Source: Amanita rubescens
Taxonomy: Eukaryota > Basidiomycota > Agaricomycetes > Agaricales > Amanitaceae
Assembly (NCBI GenBank): GCA_015039365.1
Contig: WION01000023.1
Coordinates: forward strand, 1 to 64,000
Direction of reading: 5' to 3'
Length of the DNA stretch: 64,000 bases
The notes beneath the pieces are model-generated. The model searched no databases. It had not been told where the DNA came from and saw only the letters and a program-made list of their open reading frames with translations. Shown here piece after piece: positions 28,730-61,200 of the stretch (within the stretch, counting starts at the first letter, position 1; each line of letters opens with the position of its first letter). The position numbers and the translations under genes are program-made.

Positions 28730-29394
28730 GGATGATCGATTTACGGATAAGAAAGGGACTAGGGACCAGATATACACAGTGGTCCTGGGAGAGTAGAAGG
28801 GTTTCTCCCCCACACGATGTGCTTTGGGGAGAAGGGAATAGTGCAAATACCAGGTAAGTGCCTGATATTATTCCCGTCGACGTGGCTGACTAGCATCTGA
28901 GTGTAGATGCATATAACAGGTTGATAGCGGGGGTTTGATCCCTTGCGTGTTTCGACAGGAAGGAACGGGCTTAGGAACGGCCCATTTGACGCTCGATGAA
29001 GAGGTGGCTAATATAATGCGAGAAGGGATGCGGGAGAACGAGACGGGGCGAGGACTCCGGGAAAGGTATGTTATTCCTTTCCTTTTCTCCGATTCTCGCT
29101 GACTGATTCTTTCAGCTTGGTGATTGTTCGACTATCTCTCTTTCAGCGTAACGCAGTTGGAATACGAGAGGTTGGGCATAGAGCTGGAAGTGCTGCGTGG
29201 GTGCAGCTTCAGGACTTGAGGTAAGTCCTATGGCTCTCTTTGCTCCTATGCCTGTAACAACTGTGTCATGTAGGTGCAGTATCATGTGCAAGTCAACCAT
29301 TCAACATCAGGGAGTGGGACTCGTTCGAGTCCCAAATGTATTCGGAGAGTTCGTTCGAACTCTCCATCGTTTTAGAACGATTGAGGTTAACTAG
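28730..29394 (+). CDS. Possible small multi-exon gene, structure uncertain
   Basis: Candidate exons read YTQWSWESRRVSPPHDVLWG (before a GTAAGT near 28,855), LTLDEEVANIMREGMRENET (about 28,985-29,066), LVIVRLSLFQRNAVGIREVG and SAAWVQLQDL (about 29,117-29,220), and a last exon ending at TAG 29,392-29,394. The last two joins keep phase; the first join does not, so the 5' part is doubtful. The last exon already contains the first two hairpins of the array described next. No family recognised. Confidence 0.3.
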
Positions 29395-29591
29395 TAACGC
29401 GCCCAGCTGCAGTGTCTCTTCCCCTTCAAGAGAAAAAAATGGGCGTATGGATTGATCGAAGCAACTCTCGTATGAGTTCCCATGTAATGTTGAGGGTATA
29501 GGTAGGTTTCTTTATACCCGGGAATGATGGTTTACTGACGACGTAACATAGCGTCGTCTTTTGTCCGTTATGGTTGCTTTGGCTGGGAGAA

Positions 29592-29599
29592 GTAGTAGA
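29592..29599. repeat. Target-site duplication, left, of the small hAT-like element
   Basis: GTAGTAGA, identical to 30,655-30,662. Confidence 0.75.
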
Positions 29600-30654
29600 T
29601 AGGGATTGGCTTGGGTGAACCCCTGGGTATCCAGATGCATACCCACACCCACACCCTGTGACATACCCATACCCTCACTCTGGGTATGGGTTTGGATCAG
29701 GGTACATGGCAAGCTGACCCATACCCACACCCACTTCCATACCCACACCCACACCCTTATGGGTTATACCCCTTGATGAAGGTAATGATATGTGTAATAC
29801 AAGTTAATTAAAATGAAAAAGGAAAAAGGAAAAGGAAAGAAAAAACTAGTAATTGAAACTAAGGTGAGTCCCACCTTCCCTTTTGGCCTTTCCATTCAAA
29901 ATCATATCCCATCAACATCCCCCTACTCTAGTAGGCCCAGTCCAGCCTCCAATGGTGCCCATCACTGCCACCTCCTTTAAGCCATGTGAGACTCCAATTT
30001 GAAGCAAACAGGACCAGGAGTCTCCTTCCCCTCCATTCCCTCTGTCCCTTTCCTTTGCTGGCTGACAGAGAAGTGACCCCACAGGCCCACCAGCATTGCA
30101 CCCATGGACCACCAGAAGGAGAACACACTCCTGATCCCCCACCCTCCACCTGAGGTCCCCACTGCCACCCCCAATTCAACTCTCTAGCCACACCTGTTCT
30201 GGAGCAATCCAAACAGTGAAACCCCACCCAGCAGCCCACTACTCAGGCTGCCACCCTAAGACCTCAGGTGTACAGGCCACACCCAGGTCCAGCCTCTGTA
30301 ATTGCCACCTTCTGCCATCATCATGACCCATGGAGTGAGCCACTGATGCATGTGGCCCAGTGGCCCTTCACAGGTTCTGCTTCCAAGGCTCCCCCTGCCC
30401 CCCTGCAACTATCAGACACCCACACAGGCTGCATTTGTGACCTGGGCCTGGCCTCTGTCCCAACAGAGCTACCCACATCCCACCTTATCCTGACATAGGA
30501 GTGGGTACAGGAGTGGGTATGCCTGATGATACCCAAACCCACGTTGAGGGTATGGGTTTGAATGAGGGTCCATGGAGTCTGTACCCCCACCCATACCCAC
30601 TGTACACCCACACCCGAGACCCTCAAGGGTTTGGCCAACCCATGCCAGTCCCTA
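29600..30654. mobile_element. Non-autonomous hAT-like element, 1,055 bp
   Basis: The left end is TAGGGATTGGCTTGGGT and the right end, on the other strand, is TAGGGACTGGCATGGGT; AACCC follows a few bases inside on both sides. The flanking GTAGTAGA is a perfect 8-bp duplication. Subterminal stretches are rich in GGGTATGGGT/ACCCATACCC units. The interior has no domain-bearing frame, so movement would need a transposase from elsewhere. The TAGGGAT start is shared with the large hAT element at 50,075. Confidence 0.75.
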
Positions 30655-30662
30655 GTAGTAGA
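30655..30662. repeat. Target-site duplication, right, of the small hAT-like element
   Basis: GTAGTAGA, identical to 29,592-29,599. Confidence 0.75.
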
Positions 30663-32870
30663 CGAGGTAGACGAGGGATGGCTGCGAGAAGGCAGCACTG
30701 GAATGAAGTACGTCCTCGTTTCCTACTTGTTTGAATTGTATTAACTGCATCGAATAGATGCAATTATTCCGGTTCGTCGGACGTTAAGGGGAGAGGACTC
30801 AGTGCGAGTTCTCTCCAGGATTCTTGTTTGAGACCTGGACAATTTGTCTGTCTGTCTCGAGGGTCGCCCTCTCGCTCATTGTATTATTGTATCGGAACGA
30901 ACAAGGGCCAGGAGGGTATTCCAGAGGACGCGGTGTCAAACGGATGGACGGGGAGGACTCAATAGTAAGTCCTCGATAAATGTTTATGGAGAGTTCATTG
31001 TAACTCTCCGATCAAGTTGCCTAGAATCCGAATCGGGTTCTACGGCTCTATCGGGTGGACCCTTGGGGATTCAACAAACGGGTTTGTCACAGGCAAGGGA
31101 GCGTCGACTAATACGCTCCCGAATATATGCCGCAGCTCTCGCGAGCTGTCCTCCTTCACTTCTCGAAGGAGTTATCAGTTGTTGGGACCATCTTCGAGCA
31201 GTCCCAGGATAAGGTGAGCTTGGATCACTCGCCAATGATATCTTATCGACGACGTTTAGGATACGTCGTCTAGGTACCACTTCAACAGGTGGTGAAGGCT
31301 CGTTCGAGGTTGGACGAGTGGATGTGGCTGGCGCAGGATGTATGGATGAGGGAATGGAAGTAGAGAGTGGCAGCGTGGAAGCTGCTGTAACTTCAGGTGA
31401 GGGTTTTTCTTCACTTCTGCTTCGTAGATCCGCCATTTCTCCCCAATTTCATCTGAGAAGGAGAGGGTCGGGACTCGTGTGCCAACGAGTCTTTGATATT
31501 GAGTAGAGTGCTCAGCGGAACGCTCATGGATTCCGGAGGACTAGGATGATCCTCAATATGAGTCAGTGTGGCTTCTCCCGCAACGGGAGAAGACGAGTTT
31601 TCACCAGACAGTGGTGAGAGGGATCCATTGGAGACCCGAGAGGGGGTCTCCGACAAACGGTGTGTAGTATTGATATCTACTACATGATTTGTACTTATGA
31701 CGCTCAACGTGCGTTGTTTTGAAACTGCAGGGAAAGGTGATGAAGCCCTGTCGTTGGAAGGATGAGTAGGAGTGGCCCGTGTTGAGGATACAATGACGGG
31801 CGAGGGTTTCGACAGCGAGGAAGCTGTTTTGGATGCAGTTAAGTGTTTAGTAGCTGCACTCGTTCCTTTCGTGAGGCTGATTTCTGTCCTTCCAATAGAT
31901 TGTTTCTCGACATCCCGGCGTTTCGGAAAGGGAGTCGAGACGGCTCGGCTAGGCGGCTTAATGCCAATATGAGAACTTCCTTTCGGGGGCTCTTTGGTAT
32001 TGAGACTCAGAATGACCTCTTGAGTGGCTTGAAGGCAGATTTCTTCCAGAGAAGAATGTTGCAATAGACCAGGATGGATGGGAGAGGTGATGGGAATGGG
32101 TATTGGCAGCGTGAAGGCTGCCGAAGCTTCAGGTAAGTCCAGGATATTTTCGGGAAGTCTGGAAGGACTTCCGAGTGGTTTTACAGCTCGGGTGAGCTGT
32201 TCCGACTTTCCTAAACTTGGAGAGGAAGGTGTTTTACCAAACGGCCAGTTTGCGTTTAGTAATGATACTCTAGAACGAGATCAACTCTTTGGTGAGTTCT
32301 TCTGCTCGTCATTTGTTTCGTATTGACAATGTTAGGCGTACGCTGTTCAGAAAACGTTCGAAAGGGTCGGATTAGGCTCGTTTAAGAGCCGGTTTGAAGG
32401 ATGGGCCCGTAAAGAGGAGACGGGCAAGAGTTTAGACAGCGCGAGGGCTGTCTCGGTCGAAGGCGCGTGTTCCGAGGTGTTGACTTGTTCCTTTGTACTA
32501 ACAATTGCGTTTCTCATTTGAGGTATCAGCCTGGACGCGGCTTCTGAACGAGGAATGCAAGATATAGCTGTGGCAACAACTTGGGACTTGGCCAGCTTTT
32601 TGACAGGCATAGACAGTCTGTGTAGCTGTCGATCCTCAACACCTGCAGGGAACTTCGACGAAGTACGGGAGACGGCTGGTGCTGTCTCCATTATCAATTC
32701 TGAGGGAGGTTTCGCATGGAAACCATTATTACGAGCCTTGTAGCTCATTATCCTTGGTTAGGGAACTCCGGGGGTTCCTGTGGAGTTCCAGAGGTATTGA
32801 AAGGGAGTCCAGCTTCAATGAGCTTGGACATGTTGGGAACGGGTCGTTTGAACTCGTTTCGGTGCATTTC

Positions 32871-32891
32871 GAGACTCAAAAACTGAGTCTT
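32871..32891. repeat. Hairpin with a covarying counterpart, repeat copy 1
   Basis: GACTC (32,873-32,877) and GAGTC (32,885-32,889) around a 7-nt loop. The homologous site in the next repeat copy, 33,894-33,914, has GATTC and GAATC. Confidence 0.65.
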
Positions 32892-33893
32892 TCTTTTCAG
32901 CAGGCTCGTACGTGACTTGTGTACAGTCGTGTTTCACGGGAACGGCTGAAGGAGAGGGTTTGGGCGCATCACATGTGATAACGATAGGTGAGGAGATAGG
33001 AAGGTGTCTGGGTAGCGTGTGGGTTGCCAGGACATTATCAGGTGAGGAAATGGCCTCGCTTCTTGCGTGTATATTAACGACGGAGTTGTAGACCCGTCGT
33101 TCCTCTCCAATTTCACCGGAAAGAGAGGGAGTTTGAACTTGCGCATCGGCAAATCCAAGTATTGATGTGGAGTGCTCAGTTACGCGCTCCTTGGGCATTT
33201 CGGGAAGCGTACTAGGTGCAGTCGTGGGTCTTCGAGCTGGTGTAGGGGTGCAGGGAGAATGTCCAGCTCCACGGTAGAGTGAGTCGGACTTCCTTTAGAA
33301 CGAGCTGGCAGTTGATTCGTTCTGGCGTGATGAGTCGAGTCTTGTGAGCTGAGACTCTTCTGGTTGCAGGTTGTTCGCGGGGAGATTCCTTTGTAGGAAG
33401 CAGACCGTGGTGGGCCGGAACGGATGGGAGCATAAGCGGAGCGAGTCGGCATTGTCGTCTCTTTGAGCTTGCTTTCTATCTAGCGTATAAGTTCTTTGTA
33501 GAACTTGTCCTGCCTTCCCGTGTGATCCAACCATCTAGCCAGAGTACTCGGTGCGATGTTTGGTATGGCACGTCCGAGTTTGCGTGAATTAGGAGAAGGG
33601 CCCATGGGGTCCTTGATGTTTAAGCTTTCCCGAGGGCTCGTTTTCCTCGGGGTGTTCATTTGTGGAGGCTCCAAATCTCGAGTTGTAGGAGACAGTCGTT
33701 GCTGTCTCCATTGATGACCCCGAGGGGAGTTTCTCTCGGAGATCAGTATTACGAGCCTTGGCCAGCTCGTTGTCCTGGTTTAGGGAACTCCGGAAGTTCC
33801 TGTGGAGTTCCCGAGGTGTTGAAGGGGAGTCCAGCTTCGATGAGCTCGGACGTATTTGGGAACTGGTCGTTTGAACTTGTTCCGACGCATCTC

Positions 33894-33914
33894 GAGATTC
33901 AGGAGTTGAATCTC
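33894..33914. repeat. Hairpin with a covarying counterpart, repeat copy 2
   Basis: GATTC (33,896-33,900) and GAATC (33,908-33,912) around a 7-nt loop. Compared with 32,871-32,891, both arms have changed and pairing is kept. Confidence 0.65.
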
Positions 33915-34217
33915 TCATCCTCCTAACCTCATGCATAACTGGTGGAGAGTTACGTTTGCATGACAGGGTTGAAGGACAAGGCTTGGGTGTAGCACACGCG
34001 ACAGGGATAGGCGAGGAGGTGGGAATGGGATCAGGCAGTGTGCATGCTGCCGAAGTGTCAGGTGTTCAAATACGCGTCGCGGTAGTCATGTTGCAATGTG
34101 CATGGGGGCTTGTCGAGATTGAACCGAAAGTTGAGGTAGGTAGTCCGCGACAAAATTGTCAAATCGCGTAGTCCGAGGAAATGAGATGAGAACACTCAGA
34201 GTAGTAGTGGTGTTCTA

Positions 34218-52690: not shown

Positions 52691-52698
52691 AAAGAGCA
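52691..52698. repeat. Target-site duplication, left, of the foldback element
   Basis: AAAAAGAG, identical to 57,473-57,480. Confidence 0.75.
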
Positions 52699-54935
52699 CC
52701 TGTTCAGCCGGCGAAATTTTGCTAATTAGCAGTGGTGACTCATTGAGTCACGCTTGCCAGTTAGCAAGCATTCAGGCTTTGTGGCACACTTTCAATAATT
52801 ACTGAAATTATATAGAGCGATTTTGCACCAAGTCCAGTTTCCCACACCTAAAAATGAAGCATTACCATTTCTGGAAGGTGGGGATATGTTTGTACATGTT
52901 ATGACATGGGAAATGGATCAAAAGAAAGGAACAAGGGGATAATTGCCTTATTTGGTAAGATGGGGAAATTCCAAATAAGGAAAGCAAGCTAGGATGCCAT
53001 TTTTGGAAGGTTGTGAGGGTGTTTGTACATGTTATGGCACAATTTCCTTTTTTGGAAAAAGTGTCAAACTTCCAAATAAGGCACAAAATGGGGGTCATTC
53101 AGGGTCGAATTTCCTAAAAAGGAAATGATTACATAATTTCAGGGTCAATCAATTGTGTAGCCTTGGTCAGTGGCTTTCTAAATGTGGTTGTATGACAGTG
53201 TTTGGTGTTGATTTCATTGAGATATCCACTGATTGATTTTCAGGGTCAAATTTCCTAAAAAGGAAATGATGACATAATCTCAGGGTCAATCAATTGTGTA
53301 GCCTTGGTCAGTGGCTTTCTAAATGTGGTTGTATGACAATATTTGGTTATGATTTCATTGAGATATTCACCAATTGTTTTTCAGGGTCAAATTTCTAAAA
53401 AAGGAAATTGATAATGTAATGTGCGCTTTAGGATCCAGTGGCGCATTTCCAAAAATGGAAATAGCGCCCTTCGGACTTGCCATTTTGGGACATATCTGCT
53501 CACTGTTGGTAATGATGAGCAGAAAGAAATTGCAATATCTCCCTTAATACTGAATGTTTTTGTCACCTGTACAGCCGGCAAAGTCCGGCTAATTAGCCGG
53601 GGTCACGGGATGAGTGTCCCTGGCAAGTTAGCGAGGATTTTTGGCTTTTCCCTTCACTTTCAATAGCTCCCAATAAATATAGTGGGGACTTAGACAAATT
53701 TCGAAGTTGTCACATATACAGATGTGACATATGTCCAAAACAGGAAAGTAGGTGAGTTCCCACACCTGTTTGGCCATGTTTTTGGTCGTGTGACATGGGA
53801 AAATGATATGGGGCTCATCAAATAGTGTTTTTTCAGGAGATTTGTGACAAGGGGACATTCCCACAGTTGTTTGGTTATGTTTGACAACATAAAATGATAT
53901 GGGGCTTATCAGATAGCATTTGTTAAGGAGATTTGCATAGGCAGATGTTTGTACATGGAAGGGTGGGAGGGGTGACACAATGATGGAGGGAGAGGGGGGT
54001 GAGATGATGGAGGAGTGAGAGGGGTGGGGTGAGAGTGATGAGAGGGAGGGGTGTGATAGGGGTGCACCATCTTGATCACATGATTTTTCAGGATTTTTCA
54101 AGATTTTTTGGCAGCCTGTAAAACAGTATTTTGCAAATATCTTGTGTTTGGCCCTGTTTGGGAATGTAATTCTTGCACCACCATGATCACACGATTTTTC
54201 AGGATTTTTCAAGATTTTTTTGGCAGCCTTCAATTTTTCAACACGAAGCGTTTAAAACAGTATTTTGCAAATATCTTGAGTTTGGCATTGTTTGGCATGT
54301 TCATTTCCATGCCGCTCTGATCACACGATTTTTCTGCATTTTTCACAATTTTTTCAATTTTATTCCCACGGTCACACTGTACTCTTGGCAAATGGTATGA
54401 GACTACAAAGACTACATTAAAAAGTGCGGATTTTCCAGGGTCAAATTAATGTGCACTTTAGGATCCTGTGGGCGGGTTTCCAAAAATGGAAATAGCGCCC
54501 TTCGGACTTGCCATTTTTGGAAATATCTGCTCACTGTTGGTGGTGATGAGCAACAAGAAATTGCAATAACTCCCTTAATACCGGATATTTTTGTGGCGCT
54601 TTTTTTGGAACATATTCCTTACATGTATATGCACCCATTCACCATGTTGGAATGCAAAAAATGCAAGTGGTTTCTGTCAGAATGCAACATGTCTTGCTCA
54701 CTGTTGACAACAGTGAGGAGCAACAAATGACAATATCTTCATCAATACTGGTTATTTCTGTGGCGCTTTTTTGGTATGTCCCCATTAGGCACATAGGAAG
54801 GCACTTGCAATGTTAGAATGCAAATACTATGTACTAATCATGCCACAAATAAAATTGGTGTGCTCACTGTCTGCCACAATGAGCAGCCATATCTCCACCA
54901 AAACAAGATCTTTCTGTGGCGCTTTTTTTGATTTG

Positions 54936-55151
54936 GGATCACACATAACAAAGATAAACATTGGGAGGGTCACAACAGAGGATCCCTAGGCAAGATCAAG
55001 TGGAATGTCCCATTTTTCCTGACATGTCAACTTGTCAGCCACTCTTTCTGTATCATGTTCAGTCTTTTATCATGAAACTGAAAATTACACATTAATCAGC
55101 AGGGCAATCTGCTTCTGGATACCCTGAATGACACTCTGTTATGATAAGGAA
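54936..55151. other. Unique centre of the foldback element
   Basis: About 215 bp that separate the two arms. No gene and no visible symmetry. Confidence 0.6.
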
Positions 55152-55730
55152 TCAAAATCCAAAAAAGCGCCACAAAAAGATCTTGTTTTGGTGGAGATAT
55201 GCCTGCTCATTGTGGCAGACAGTGAGCACATCAATTTTATTTGTGGCTGATTGGTACATACTATTCGCATTCTGACATTCCAAATACCTTCCTATATGCC
55301 TAATAAGGACATACCAAAAAAGCGCCACAGAAATAACCAGTATTGATGAAGATATTGTCATTTGTTGCTCCTCACTGTTGTCAACAGTGAGCAAGACATG
55401 TTGCATTCTGACAGAAACCACTTGCATTTTTTGCATTCTAACATGGTGAATGGGTGCATATACATGTAAGGAATATGTTCCAAAAAAAGCGCCACAAAAA
55501 TATCCGGTATTAAGGGAGTTATTGCAATTTCTTGTTGCTCATCACCACCAACAGTGAGCAGATATTTCCAAAAATGGCAAGTCCGAAGGGCGCTATTTCC
55601 ATTTTTGGAAACCCGCCCACAGGATCCTAAAGTGCACATTAATTTGACCCTGGAAAATCCGCACTTTTTAATGTAGTCTTTGTAGTCTCATACCATTTGC
55701 CAAGAGTACAGTGTGACCGTGGGAATAAAA

Positions 55731-55843
55731 TTGAAAAAATTGTGAAAAATGCAGAAAAATCGTGTGATCAGAGCGGCATGGAAATGAACATGCCAAACAA
55801 TGCCAAACTCAAGATATTTGCAAAATACTGTTTTAAACGCTTC
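55731..55843 (+). repeat. Shared ~100-bp module, copy in the foldback arm
   Basis: Holds AAAAATGCAGAAAAATCGTG, CCAAACAATGCCAAACTC and AAGATATTTGCAAAATACTG in order, matching modules at 43,753 and 59,050. Related copies stand in tandem next to it and, inverted, in the other arm (about 54,080-54,345). Confidence 0.6.
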
Positions 55844-57472
55844 GTGTTGAAAAATTGAAGGCTGCCAAAAAAATCTTGAAAAATCCTGAAAAATCGTGTG
55901 ATCATGGTGGTGCAAGAATTACATTCCCAAACAGGGCCAAACACAAGATATTTGCAAAATACTGTTTTACAGGCTGCCAAAAAATCTTGAAAAATCCTGA
56001 AAAATCATGTGATCAAGATGGTGCACCCCTATCACACCCCTCCCTCTCATCACTCTCACCCCACCCCTCTCACTCCTCCATCATCTCACCCCCCTCTCCC
56101 TCCATCATTGTGTCACCCCTCCCACCCTTCCATGTACAAACATCTGCCTATGCAAATCTCCTTAACAAATGCTATCTGATAAGCCCCATATCATTTTATG
56201 TTGTCAAACATAACCAAACAACTCCCTTGTCACACATCTCCTGAAAAAATGCTATCTAATGAGCCCCATATCATTTTATGTTGTCAAACATAACCAAACA
56301 ACTGTGGGAATGTCCCCTTGTCACAAATCTCCTGAAAAAACACTATTTGATGAGCCCCATATCATTTTCCCATGTCACACGACCAAAAACATGGCCAAAC
56401 AGGTGTGGGAACTCACCTACTTTCCTGTTTTGGACATATGTCACATCTGTATATGTGACAACTTCGAAATTTGTCTAAGTCCCCACTATATTTATTGGGA
56501 GCTATTGAAAGTGAAGGGAAAAGCCAAAAATCCTCGCTAACTTGCCAGGGACACTCATCCCGTGACCCCGGCTAATTAGCCGGACTTTGCCGGCTGTACA
56601 GGTGACAAAAACATTCAGTATTAAGGGAGATATTGCAATTTCTTTCTGCTCATCATTACCAACAGTGAGCAGATATGTCCCAAAATGGCAAGTCCGAAGG
56701 GCGCTATTTCCATTTTTGGAAATGCGCCACTGGATCCTAAAGCGCACATTACATTATCAATTTCCTTTTTTAGAAATTTGACCCTGAAAAACAATTGGTG
56801 AATATCTCAATGAAATCATAACCAAATATTGTCATACAACCACATTTAGAAAGCCACTGACCAAGGCTACACAATTGATTGACCCTGAGATTATGTCATC
56901 ATTTCCTTTTTAGGAAATTTGACCCTGAAAATCAATCAGTGGATATCTCAATGAAATCAACACCAAACACTGTCATACAACCACATTTAGAAAGCCACTG
57001 ACCAAGGCTACACAATTGATTGACCCTGAAATTATGTAATCATTTCCTTTTTAGGAAATTCGACCCTGAATGACCCCCCATTTTGTGCCTTATTTGGAAG
57101 TTTGACACTTTTTCCAAAAAAGGAAATTGTGCCATAACATGTACAAACACCCTCACAACCTTCCAAAAATGGCATCCTAGCTTGCTTTCCTTATTTGGAA
57201 TTTCCCCATCTTACCAAATAAGGCAATTATCCCCTTGTTCCTTTCTTTTGATCCATTTCCCATGTCATAACATGTACAAACATATCCCCACCTTCCAGAA
57301 ATGGTAATGCTTCATTTTTAGGTGTGGGAAACTGGACTTGGTGCAAAATCGCTCTATATAATTTCAGTAATTATTGAAAGTGTGCCACAAAGCCTGAATG
57401 CTTGCTAACTGGCAAGCGTGACTCAATGAGTCACCACTGCTAATTAGCAAAATTTCGCCGGCTGAACAGGTG

Positions 57473-58213: not shown

Positions 58214-61200
58214 ATGGATCCTAAACCCTCAGAGGTCGTTATCCACCAAGCGCAATCTGAGGTTGTCTTCGAGGAATACCTCTTTTACGCAGCGTTGCAA
58301 CGAAATAAAGAAGGCGGCCTACCAGTCTTTCCGCTCAATTTGCAAATCGATATCCCTCCTGACTCGAAAGAGACCTGGATGAGCAGGACAGACAAGCTTC
58401 CGTCCATGACCCCAGATCAACATGGGAGAGCGGAGGCATCCCGCGCGCTTCGAATAGCTTCTTGGATGTCTGTTTTTTGGTTGCTTACCACTGACATCGT
58501 TGGGCCATTCACCGCCCCGTACGCAATCTCCCAAGTAGGCTGGGTCCCTGGCGTTATTCTCTTCGTCTTCCGTTGAGTCTATCTCTTGATAACCTCCTTT
58601 GCGCTTATTCATTATTACATGTTTCCAGTGGGGATACTATCGTCATACTCCGGGATTCTACTATGGGCATTGTTCCTTCGACTTGATTCTCTCTGGTACC
58701 CACTCAAAACGTATGCCGATATTGCGGATAGGATATACGGGATATATGCCCGCCGTGCTTTCAATCTTTTGCAATCAGTACAATTAATGATCAATGTATG
58801 CTTCTTCTGCTCCGATATCCTCGCCAGCCTCAGCACTTTACACTCCCCCCCCTGTCCGAATAGACTCCGAGTCCAGTCCGAGGACTCCGAGGACTCCGAG
58901 TAGACTCCGAGCTCAGTCTGAGTCCAGTCCGAGTCCAGTCCGAGGTGTGCTCGGAGTCCGAGTGGAGTCCGAGTGGAGTCTGAGTAGACTCCGAGTAGAC
59001 TCCGAGTTCAGTCTGAGTTCACTCTCAGTTGTTTATACTTGCAGTAAAATACCAAAAAAATGCTTAAAAAATGCAGAAAAATCGTGTGATCCAGGTCATA
59101 TAGGAATTGTAAAGCCAAACAAAGCCAAACTTGAGATATTTGCAAAATATGTTTTCAGATGTGAGTGTAATCTTAAGAAGTGTACAAAAATTATGTGATC
59201 TGCATATGGTACACTCATACACCTGTCATTCCATACTGGTGGTTATGATGAATGTCACCTCTGCCTGCATGCCCACAGCAGACTTCTGGCAGTTGCAGTT
59301 CAGCATCCACTTGTTTCACAGTCAACTTCCACAATCCCACCTGTTACCAACAACCAATGACATTGCAGAGAGTTGTTAGAGCTCATGAATAAATGTGAGA
59401 GGGTTGGAGATGTGACTCATGGGGTCTGTGAATATATTATCTCAAGGGAGAAGGGGGTGGATATGAGTTCTTGACAATTCTTTGGTGATGGTACATGGTA
59501 GTGAGTAGTTGTTAACAGCATATTGTGTTATGATCATGATGTTCTAGCATTTGCAGCCTACCAAAGCTTTTACAGTAGTAGAAGCATCCTGAGAGCCTCA
59601 CCTTGCACAACTTTGGTCATGTATACCTCCAGCAACCACTCAGTCTGTTGGTGGGGAAGGTTGGACATCCTAGATTCCTAGCAGTATTTGAAGACCCTCA
59701 TACTCCACCACAATCATCCGAATCCATAGGGGACCAGAGTTTTGTTTATGACAGCCTGGGTAAGGTAATAAGGAAAGTGGAGATGAACAGGATTCAGTGA
59801 TTCTGATGCCATCTTTATTGTATATTAACTTGGAACTTGAAGATCATAGATTCATAGCAAACATCTTACAAACTTTTGCACACCAAGTTCACAAGTCCTT
59901 CCTTCACTTAATTTATACTTATTAAGGATGCTATATTGGATGAAGAAACTATCAGTGGCAATGCAAATAACACCCTTGGACAATTTCTCACTGAGAAGTT
60001 GGAAGAGTCAGCATTGCTGGTGACTCTATTTCAGATGTGCTCAGTATGTGGAAGCACACAAGCCTTGAACTTGATGGTTGATGAACTGTTTGATCTAAGA
60101 GGTTGTAAGGCTGGAGAGAAGTAATAGTGCTATCTTGAAAGATGTGGTGATTTGTGCAGTAAAGAAAGCTGCACAGCCAGATTTGTATGTAAGATTGAAG
60201 AATTGTGGAAGGCAGGTCACATCAGCATTAAAACTTCATAATGATCCACATTGTACTATACTAGCCACACTGTTTTGTATGCCAGTGCCCCAATCAAACT
60301 TAGGTATTTTGCAAATATCTCAAGTTTGAGTTTACTCAGCTTCACCATTCTTATATGACCTGGATCACATGATTTTTCCGCATTTTTAAAGATTTTTTGC
60401 AGACTTTTCAAATTTCTCACATGAAGCGTCTGAAAAAGTATTTTGCAAATATCTCAAGTTTGGGCTTGTTTGGCTTTACCATTTTTGTATGACTGGAATC
60501 ACATGATTTTTCTGCATTTTTTAAATATTTTTTGGGATTTTATTGTAGGTGTAGACAATTCCAAATAGTGCCAAATAGTGCCAAACAGACTGGCCATATG
60601 TATATAAGGCCCTGTCAATGTCGCCACTGCCCCCCCTGCTCTTGCCACTTGGGGGTGCTCGGACTGCTCGGACTCCACTCGGATTGCTCGGACTCCACTC
60701 GGACTCCGACATCCTCAGTCCGAGGACTCCAAGTCCAAGTCCGAGCTGAGCTCGGACTCAGCTCGGATTGAGCTCGGACTGAGCTCGGACTCGGACTTGA
60801 GGATTTGAGTGGCATCCCTGCCACTTCCTCAGTCCGAGGAGTGAGCTCGGACTCCGAGCTCACTCCGAGCTGAGTCCTAGGACTGCTCGGATTCTGCTCG
60901 GAGTCCGAGAATCTTAGGGGGGGGAGAGTAAAGCGCTCGCCAGCCTGATCTTTTCTCCGCAGGTTGGCGGGATCAGCTTGGCACTTGGACAGAGTTTATC
61001 CCAAATCACTCAAGGACGGGTGAGTGAGCATTATTAATCCCTGTGATGAATCCCCTGAAAGCTTTCTATAGTTATGTTTCTCAATTTGCGTTCTCATCTT
61101 TCCGATAATCAACATGATCCTTGGTCAAATTCGAACGCTCAAGGTGCGATGTTTCGTATACACTACCCTACCTCATCGCTCAATTTATACCCATCAGAAT

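Follow-up and report, generated by a model that had tools for sequence, protein, structure and literature searches.

What raises the question at this locus is the crowding of short perfect hairpins: within a 64,000-nt window from Amanita rubescens (the whole stretch of DNA that was analysed), do they exceed what composition provides, and what would they serve? Hairpins were counted over 29316-29602 and 30665-34217 (3,840 nt), with a nested element excluded. At minimum stem lengths of 5, 6, 7 and 8 bp and loops of 3-12 nt, non-overlapping perfect hairpins in the tract numbered 62, 38, 24 and 11, compared with means of 25.2, 6.5, 1.5 and 0.5 and maxima of 30, 11, 6 and 2 in 30 dinucleotide shuffles of the tract. 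The original prediction of a hairpin-dense tract therefore holds (24 vs 1.5±1.4 at stems of at least 7 bp), as does its statement that different stems occupy different sites and no single palindrome was copied. The density of 7-bp hairpins was 6.3 per kb in the tract against ∼1.3 per kb in the rest of the window (102 in the whole window); it mostly dropped back in the flanks of other fetched copies, and just 4 hairpins occurred over ∼2.5 kb of a transposon inserted in a further copy (L036:714-3184). Mean folding z-scores in 120-nt windows lay between -1.27 and -2.25 on both strands of the tract and of four copies, against -0.09 and 0.12 in the control; pervasive structure thus exceeds dinucleotide composition in these sequences. 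Regular spacing was not found (coefficient of variation 1.07 for 258 spacings in five copies). Stem lengths stayed within a narrow range, with a longest perfect stem of 9 bp in the tract, nested element aside; a strict 9-bp ceiling is weakened, since 4 of 29 distinct stems extend from 9 to 10 bp.

Comparison with related loci shows a many-copy gene family to which the tract belongs as a decayed copy, broken and interrupted by a nested hAT-like MITE (Table 1). The earlier reading was correct about the hairpins but missed that a broken gene-family copy lies here, with intron signals on the plus strand and a long frame on the minus strand. Repetitive and diverged, the family forms many-copy DNA in the 75.7-Mb genome and has so far been seen only in A. 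rubescens and in sequences from other sources; no relatives were found in IMG/VR. Its alignments span ∼28731 to ∼34205 (by eye ∼34250), so that the interval first proposed, 29316..34217, stands for the hairpin excess but not for the limits. Fifteen of 20 fetched loci align to some of the upstream part, in which indels within 29309-29599 are often not multiples of three, and block P has 40 matches in its own genome, the window copy counted. At the deletion junction other copies are longer by ∼1.7-1.9 kb, a part coding for the C-terminus (e.g. 1266 to 3147 in L026 and 1416 to 3161 in L033). Sequence shared by other copies extends beyond the left end of the window copy, and no terminal inverted repeats with a target duplication were seen among the 25 inverted pairs listed of 61. 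A tandem telomere repeat, as expected for subtelomeric placement, was absent in the six loci examined; two single CCCTAA occur within 6 kb of C471 sequence. On either side of the nested element, at 29592-29599 and 30655-30662, stands the 8-bp target duplication GTAGTAGA, read by eye, and other copies, which lack it, continue across the insertion point. The duplication and the short terminal repeats would place it in the hAT class, in agreement with its earlier recognition.

Table 1. Features of the window copy and its nested element
Feature	Position	Strand	Remarks
Upstream part of predicted plus-strand transcript	28731..29599	+	hairpin-rich, non-coding; 3' flank of minus frame in intact copies
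Predicted intron, CCAG/GTAAGT .. CTGAC .. TAG	28854..28906	+	pattern search
Predicted intron, GGAAAG/GTATGT .. CTGAC .. CAG	29066..29115	+	donor inside hairpin 29060-29082
Two adjoining hairpins, 8 and 9 bp stems	29315..29365	+	hairpin count
Predicted intron 29502-29551	29494..29558	+	donor in loop of hairpin 29494-29519, acceptor in loop of 29537-29558; pattern in 3/5 aligned copies
Nested non-autonomous hAT-like element	29600..30654	.	terminal repeats TAGGGAYTGGC; outside hairpin family
Block P of plus-strand unit	30655..31010	+	holds predicted intron 30708-30757, pattern in 5/5 aligned copies
Deletion junction	31010..31015	.	comparison with other copies
Long-frame remnant	31015..34205	-	internal duplication 32668-32893 / 33688-33916
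Hairpin run 31097-31120, 31133-31148, 31151-31171, 31183-31206, 31248-31270	31097..31270	+	within alignment A3
Predicted intron, donor GTGAGT, branch TTGAC, acceptor TAG	32292..32335	+	pattern in 9/9 aligned copies
Predicted intron, donor GTGAGG, branch TTAAC, acceptor TAG	33042..33091	+	pattern in 7/9 aligned copies; acceptor in loop of hairpin 33076-33101

Nine of the 20 fetched copies contain one stop-free minus-strand frame of 1,511-1,721 codons, of which the window keeps fragments (longest stop-free stretch, 289 codons). The encoded protein is rich in Ser, Thr, Pro and Arg. Its N-terminal domain gave a helical model (pLDDT 73.6, pTM 0.53) with no relatives among solved structures, and Pfam returned no domain in the three frames tested or in four relatives. 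Related families B and C (P0008-P0015) lie at ∼37% protein identity. With a dN/dS of 0.60-0.77 (15 pairs), the frame is best read as a real but loosely constrained gene.

Candidate splice signals are conserved on the plus strand, antisense to this frame. With a regular expression of our own choosing for fungal introns, 10 positions on the plus strand were conserved, at a threshold of 60% of copies or more, compared with 0 on the sense strand and 0 and 0 in the reversed controls; five of the 10 rest on 3 or 5 copies each, and two of the six segments had no conserved position. The pattern occurred 7-11 times antisense to the frame and 1.2-1.4 times after synonymous shuffling, with 0 on the sense strand. 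Hairpin loops (stems of at least 5 bp) contained 53 of 122 candidate acceptors while making up 14% of bases, and many of the recurring patterns have their AG in loops that otherwise change fast. A plus-strand protein was set aside: the exons placed by hand in L026 do not stay open together, 14 of 17 having stops in all three frames and 3 having a stop-free frame (of the 16 introns applied, two have no YAG acceptor, and further introns may have been missed), and in one plus frame pN/pS simply tracks that of the minus frame.

We therefore favour, with a probability of roughly 0.45, a family with information on both strands, in which a minus-strand long-frame gene is overlapped by a folded, spliced plus-strand antisense RNA under selection. 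The minus strand would encode, in a single unbroken frame as long as 1,721 codons, the Ser/Thr/Pro/Arg-rich protein with its predicted helical N-terminal domain. From sequence we infer that the plus RNA is transcribed, spliced and functional: some ten short introns of 44-64 nt, or more, would be removed from it, with a short hairpin (at least 6 bp) about every 65 nt, and selection would act on the folded RNA. In the mechanism that seems to us likeliest, local folding would keep this RNA compact, and its hairpins could hide or present splice sites; they could also hinder pairing with the overlapping mRNA and therefore, we propose, leave less Dicer-length dsRNA, after which the antisense RNA would tune expression of the family. 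The avoidance of dsRNA is conjecture.

Since the same hairpins can fold on either strand, we considered whether minus-strand RNA might be the folded product, a reading that we regard as unlikely, if the best of the rivals. The hairpins extend through the frame and its flanks, and in four of five comparisons the minus-strand z-score equalled or undercut that of plus, being lower for the window tract, L026 and L038 and approximately equal for L030 (plus was lower for L036), so that folding z-scores give no support to plus over minus. Wobble pairs, however, moderately favour the plus strand. Pair columns read on that strand had 80 G.U against 47 A.C, positions just outside long stems 27 against 6, and singleton stem changes made 71 G.U against 49 A.C (summed); one pair in alignment A3 is U.G in 12 of 12 copies, and segment 3p_a runs the opposite way (1 against 3). 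These substitution-based counts were retained with the caveat that the plus strand is G- and T-rich, composition alone predicting more G.T than A.C among single mismatches, and the G.U preference is partly composition. One-mismatch hairpins (73 G.T vs 45 A.C, 8 or more pairs) were dropped as strand evidence because of the same G+T richness. The 10 conserved plus-strand intron positions, against zero in three controls, and the many AGs held in fast-changing loops also count against minus-strand folding. That the plus rather than the minus strand is the folded RNA is nonetheless supported less firmly than what the computations show directly: the hairpin excess, conserved and compensating stems, antisense intron patterns, loop-held acceptors and the open frame.

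An origin by mutation, through quasi-palindrome correction or arm-to-arm template switching at a repeat family with no selection on RNA, would suit the narrow range of stem lengths and the repetitive, diverged nature of the family. Consistent with it, double changes in stems exceeded the independent-change expectation in five of six segments, the exception being 3p_b (0.024 vs 0.023 expected). In support of selection on a folded RNA, 331 of the 427 double-change cells from six segments regained a Watson-Crick pair, cells that are not independent because the copies are related; one such change, C-G to T-A, is found in L029 in the alignment of the two adjoining hairpins. Copying between arms should keep the rate per site as it was, which is not what we observed. 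In three tested segments, change in stems ran at about half the level of loops or of the remaining sequence (divergence 0.10/0.11/0.06 in stems, 0.24/0.25/0.18 in loops, 0.22/0.22/0.18 in the rest), although 3p_b shows no such difference (0.183 vs 0.185) and two of five measures in alignment A3 were not above shuffles. One-sided stem changes are also commoner than two-sided ones, and wobble asymmetry and the association with splice acceptors are not accounted for. This origin is thus already disfavoured and, in our judgement, quite improbable; palindrome-forming repair or copying, suggested at first, finds no support as a main cause, since the half-divergent stems and conserved splice signals go unexplained. 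A structured-RNA role, also suggested then, gained support from stems more conserved than loops, pairing mostly kept in double changes and wobble pairs that lean to one strand.

Perfect stems of 10 bp or less are too short for a Dicer substrate. Among 648 distinct perfect stems four reach 10 bp and none is longer, and Rfam, the sole search for long imperfect stems, gave no match at its thresholds. A template for small RNAs (a miRNA-like array), another of the roles first listed, is therefore unsupported and very unlikely, despite many hairpins within one region and the frequent association of fungal hairpin small RNAs with coding genes described in one report (PMC9757828); a miRNA or milRNA precursor was rejected for want of a long Dicer-feeding perfect stem. 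Least probable of all is that hairpins are a by-product of complementary codons in the protein motif [RQ]RxxxxVV[SN], which recurs and, by eye, coincides with acceptor hairpins, because synonymous shuffling keeps the protein yet removes about nine tenths of the hairpins (29-43 per open frame reduced to 2.8-4.2 in five open frames) and most antisense intron patterns, the non-coding flanks are likewise hairpin-rich, and the protein is loosely constrained.

A more specific form of the two-strand reading, rather doubtful as a whole, would have one DNA yield two selected products: a protein of 1,500-1,700 aa and, from the opposite strand, a spliced RNA of some 80-100 short hairpins, with splice sites often in loops. 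Taken jointly with this, the recurring protein motif would be the reverse complement of a 3' splice site together with its hairpin and branch point, the antisense RNA would be the dominant product and outlast loss of the frame, and sub-Dicer stems would let sense and antisense RNAs coexist without mutual silencing. If the two-strand reading is true, a cellular gene family would carry virus-like long-range RNA structure under selection, probably opposite the coding frame, and hairpins would harbour its splice sites; such a family would offer a natural many-copy system for studying how sense and antisense RNAs avoid dsRNA and how local structure gates splicing, and RNA constraints would shape the protein, its repeat motif being dictated by opposite-strand splice signals.

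Literature searches, as far as the texts they returned extend, gave no description of this family and linked the arrangement to nothing known. It resembles fungal natural antisense and transposon-antisense lncRNAs (PMC10648671, available portion) in its predicted non-coding transcript, antisense to an open frame and tied to a repeat family, but those are expressed transcripts, the transcript here being predicted from sequence, and that portion mentions neither hairpin arrays nor hairpin-borne splice sites. As in GORS, structure extends over much of a long sequence beyond composition; there it is linked to lower recognition by host sensors and the carrier is an RNA virus genome, whereas here the carrier is nuclear many-copy DNA with no viral domain in the frames tested, the structure leans toward the strand antisense to the frame, and intron signals lie within hairpins. 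Single-stranded RNA phage genomes contain dispersed packaging hairpins of comparable size, spaced by some tens of nt, but the present ones are DNA-borne in a eukaryotic nucleus and no coat or replicase domain was found. Structured introners are known, and introner-like elements and stwintrons of fungi, in the excerpts consulted, resemble the predicted introns in being short, interrelated and locally structured. Here, however, the introns lie antisense to the frame, the predicted exons are filled with hairpins as well, and duplication, within one family, of the unit that holds the introns seems to be why they recur.

The original prediction that the tract is packed with short perfect hairpins was confirmed and can be extended to the many-copy family of which the tract is a broken member. 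With the nested element excluded, the tract contains 24 perfect hairpins (stem of at least 7 bp, loop of 3–12 nt), compared with 1.5 ± 1.4 and a maximum of 6 in 30 dinucleotide shuffles, and their density is 6.3 per kb versus ~1.3 per kb in the remaining window. The excess above shuffles falls at stems of 5–9 bp, 4 of 648 distinct stems reach 10 bp, and most loops measure 3–15 nt. In four copies, 82–98 hairpins of at least 6 bp each were counted, with a median centre spacing of 62–67 nt; no regular spacing was found for 7-bp hairpins (CV 1.07). Hairpin density drops within a transposon nested in one family copy (L036), which provides a natural control.

The family carries a long minus-strand frame, and in 9 of 20 fetched loci it is free of stops over 1,511–1,721 codons, measured from stop to stop with no start codon required. 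In the window copy the frame is broken: the longest stop-free stretch is 289 codons, ~1.7–1.9 kb is missing at 31010/31015, and an internal duplication is also present. The frame looks real, since 76 of 79 gaps in the aligned block B1 are multiples of three, stops number 0.0–0.3 per 60-codon window in frame (broken copies included) versus up to 6.6 in other frames, and family B proteins align to it with ~37% amino-acid identity over ~800 residues. For 15 pairs, dN/dS was 0.60–0.77, all three codon positions had changed to nearly the same extent, and pN/pS of the true frame was not clearly below that of other frames; judged by these ratios, the frame is only loosely constrained. Searches of 5.8 billion proteins (~8,000 best candidates scored each) returned 13 and 7 relatives, and every one with an organism name (8 of 13, P0009 among them, and 4 of 7) is from A. 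rubescens. No Pfam family was matched by three frames or four protein relatives, and the N-terminal 178 residues are modeled as all-helical (pLDDT 73.6).

The hairpins in the frame cannot be put down to the protein it encodes. Five open frames contain 29–43 hairpins, versus 2.8–4.2 with synonymous codons permuted and 2.0–2.6 with codon order permuted (40 shuffles each), and hairpins extend beyond the frame into non-coding flanks. When stem columns were defined in one copy and divergence was measured among the others, stems in three of six segments diverged by 0.10, 0.11 and 0.06, compared with 0.24, 0.25 and 0.18 for loops and 0.22, 0.22 and 0.18 elsewhere. A simpler comparison of all six gave the same direction in five; segment 3p_b showed no difference (0.183 vs 0.185). 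Where both sides of a pair had changed, 331 of 427 cells were again Watson–Crick, and double changes exceeded the independent expectation in every segment except 3p_b. In alignment A3 (12 copies, seven consecutive hairpins), 96.6% of 587 cells are paired, versus 35–45% with partners slid, and none of 500 shuffles reached A3 in the number of paired cells, the number of cells changed on both sides or the covariation score. Pairs changed on both sides showed no excess in A3 (145 of the 500 shuffles were as high), nor did pair types (500 of 500). RNA-level constraint acts on many short hairpins. Among the roles originally proposed, structured RNA therefore fits best, ahead of a small-RNA template or palindrome-forming repair or copying. 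In the broken window copy, unique changes fall in 14 of 327 stem positions vs 70 of 796 outside (ratio 0.49; 0.00–0.92 in the other eleven copies), and 193 of 223 pairs are retained (0.865), near the low end of the 0.843–0.928 seen in the others. These figures include the period before the copy broke and are therefore suggestive only.

RNA stems tolerate G.U, whose complement on the opposite strand is A.C. In mostly Watson–Crick pair columns of the six segments, with terminal pairs dropped, the plus strand shows 80 G.U vs 47 A.C (binomial ~0.003, at sites that are not independent); without filtering the counts are 161 vs 85. Singleton changes make 71 G.U vs 49 A.C in plus-strand stems, compared with 192 vs 217 outside stems, and all 12 of 12 copies have U.G at one pair. 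Composition confounds the single-mismatch counts. Positions just outside stems of at least 8 bp show 27 plus-strand G.T vs 6 A.C, where composition alone predicts ~1.7 to 1. Segment 3p_a runs the opposite way (1 to 3), and folding z-scores did not favor the plus strand. Overall, we favor the plus strand as the folded RNA with odds of roughly 2 to 1.

Conserved splice patterns lie opposite the frame. Using a fungal intron pattern (GTRNG-YTRAY-YAG, 42–70 nt), we found 10 plus-strand positions where 60% or more of the copies share the pattern in matching alignment columns (3 and 2 in segments of nine copies each, 2 among three copies, 3 among five, none in two segments), versus 0 on the minus strand and 0 in both reversed controls. 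Within the five frames the antisense strand shows 7–11 such intron patterns, a number that drops to 1.2–1.4 when synonymous codons are shuffled; the sense strand shows 0. Donor variants frequently stay within consensus (GTGAGT, GTGAGC, GTATGT, GTACGT, GTGCGT), and candidate sites are lost in single copies. At 16 candidate positions, some overlapping, variation at the acceptor AG was 0.014 for G and 0.112 for A against a background of 0.194, with 0.25–0.37 at five upstream and 0.18–0.22 at three downstream positions, figures that are partly circular because candidates were picked by pattern. As far as tested, no coding frame runs through the predicted plus-strand exons.

Among 122 candidates in nine copies, which are not independent, acceptors lie in loops of hairpins (stems of at least 5 bp) in 53 cases, where loops account for 14% of bases, and the donor falls within a hairpin in 61 cases, vs 36% coverage; in the remaining window, 11 of 47 candidate acceptors lie in hairpins (20% coverage), 7 of them in loops. 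A typical acceptor runs from the branch CTAAC into the arm AACGACGG, through a TATAG-bearing loop, to CCGTCGTT in the following exon. On the opposite strand, by eye, this form reads as the motif [RQ]RxxxxVV[SN] that recurs in the protein, also found at the protein level in families B and C.

We infer that a spliced antisense transcript would arise from the plus strand, perhaps initiated between neighboring copies, since in two loci (L024 and L038) the next copy's upstream block is found past the point where the plus strand starts. By folding densely at the local scale, the transcript would pair more slowly with the overlapping mRNA and hold its stems under Dicer length, and donor and acceptor hairpins could gate splicing. 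In some RNA viruses, according to one report (PMC3950689), pervasive structure accompanies weaker recognition by host sensors; this concerns animal cells and is hence an analogy only for a fungal family. Judged on the literature searched, the hairpin family, with its predicted spliced antisense transcript, appears novel; we do not claim that it belongs to any named family.

Locations of the tract, family blocks and neighboring features
Feature	Location	Description
Hairpin-dense tract	window 29316–34217	
hAT-like MITE	window 29600–30654	~1.05 kb, ACCC-rich subterminal repeats, inserted in hairpin family
Block P	window 30655–31010	346 nt
Large palindrome	window 52697–57472	near-perfect; arm segments 976, 851, 398 nt, 99–100% complementary; spacer a few hundred nt
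Clustered GC-rich perfect hairpins	window 60698–60866	stems 7 to 13 bp, some exceeding the family's
Transposon nested in family copy	L036:714–3184	4 hairpins in ~2.5 kb
Repeated single hairpin	L040:30–414	GGGTACA cccccga TGTACCC, x8, 52 bp apart; apparently unrelated to hairpin family
Head-to-tail neighbor	L024:9652–10000	further copy's upstream block, same orientation
Head-to-tail neighbor	L038:9751–10000	further copy's upstream block, same orientation
Family block	2069–3081 on C471, C462, C441, C430, C158, C78, C21	identical coordinates
Family block	C492, C496, C499, C503	nearly identical coordinates

The window is part of a 408,926-bp contig in a 75.7-Mb genome. The tract matches at least 93 segments of its own genome (E ≤ 0.001, the window's own counted), a lower bound from 40 of 117 candidates scored, and block P has 40 matches (39 of 39 candidates scored). 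The family was sampled from 20 regions, each 10 kb or less in length, and mean identity among non-redundant copies is 79–91% depending on segment. Certain long stretches match at 100% identity across contigs (L026/L027 and L024/L025) and may represent two haplotypes within the assembly, so family copy numbers may be inflated. The same-coordinate family blocks would be repeated contigs or one large repeat; the initial 6 kb of C471 showed no telomere array. The nested element is read as hAT-like from its terminal repeats (TAGGGAYTGGC) and 8-bp target duplication (GTAGTAGA), both read by eye and as expected for hAT, and other family copies continue uninterrupted over its insertion point. The large palindrome elsewhere in the window looks recent.
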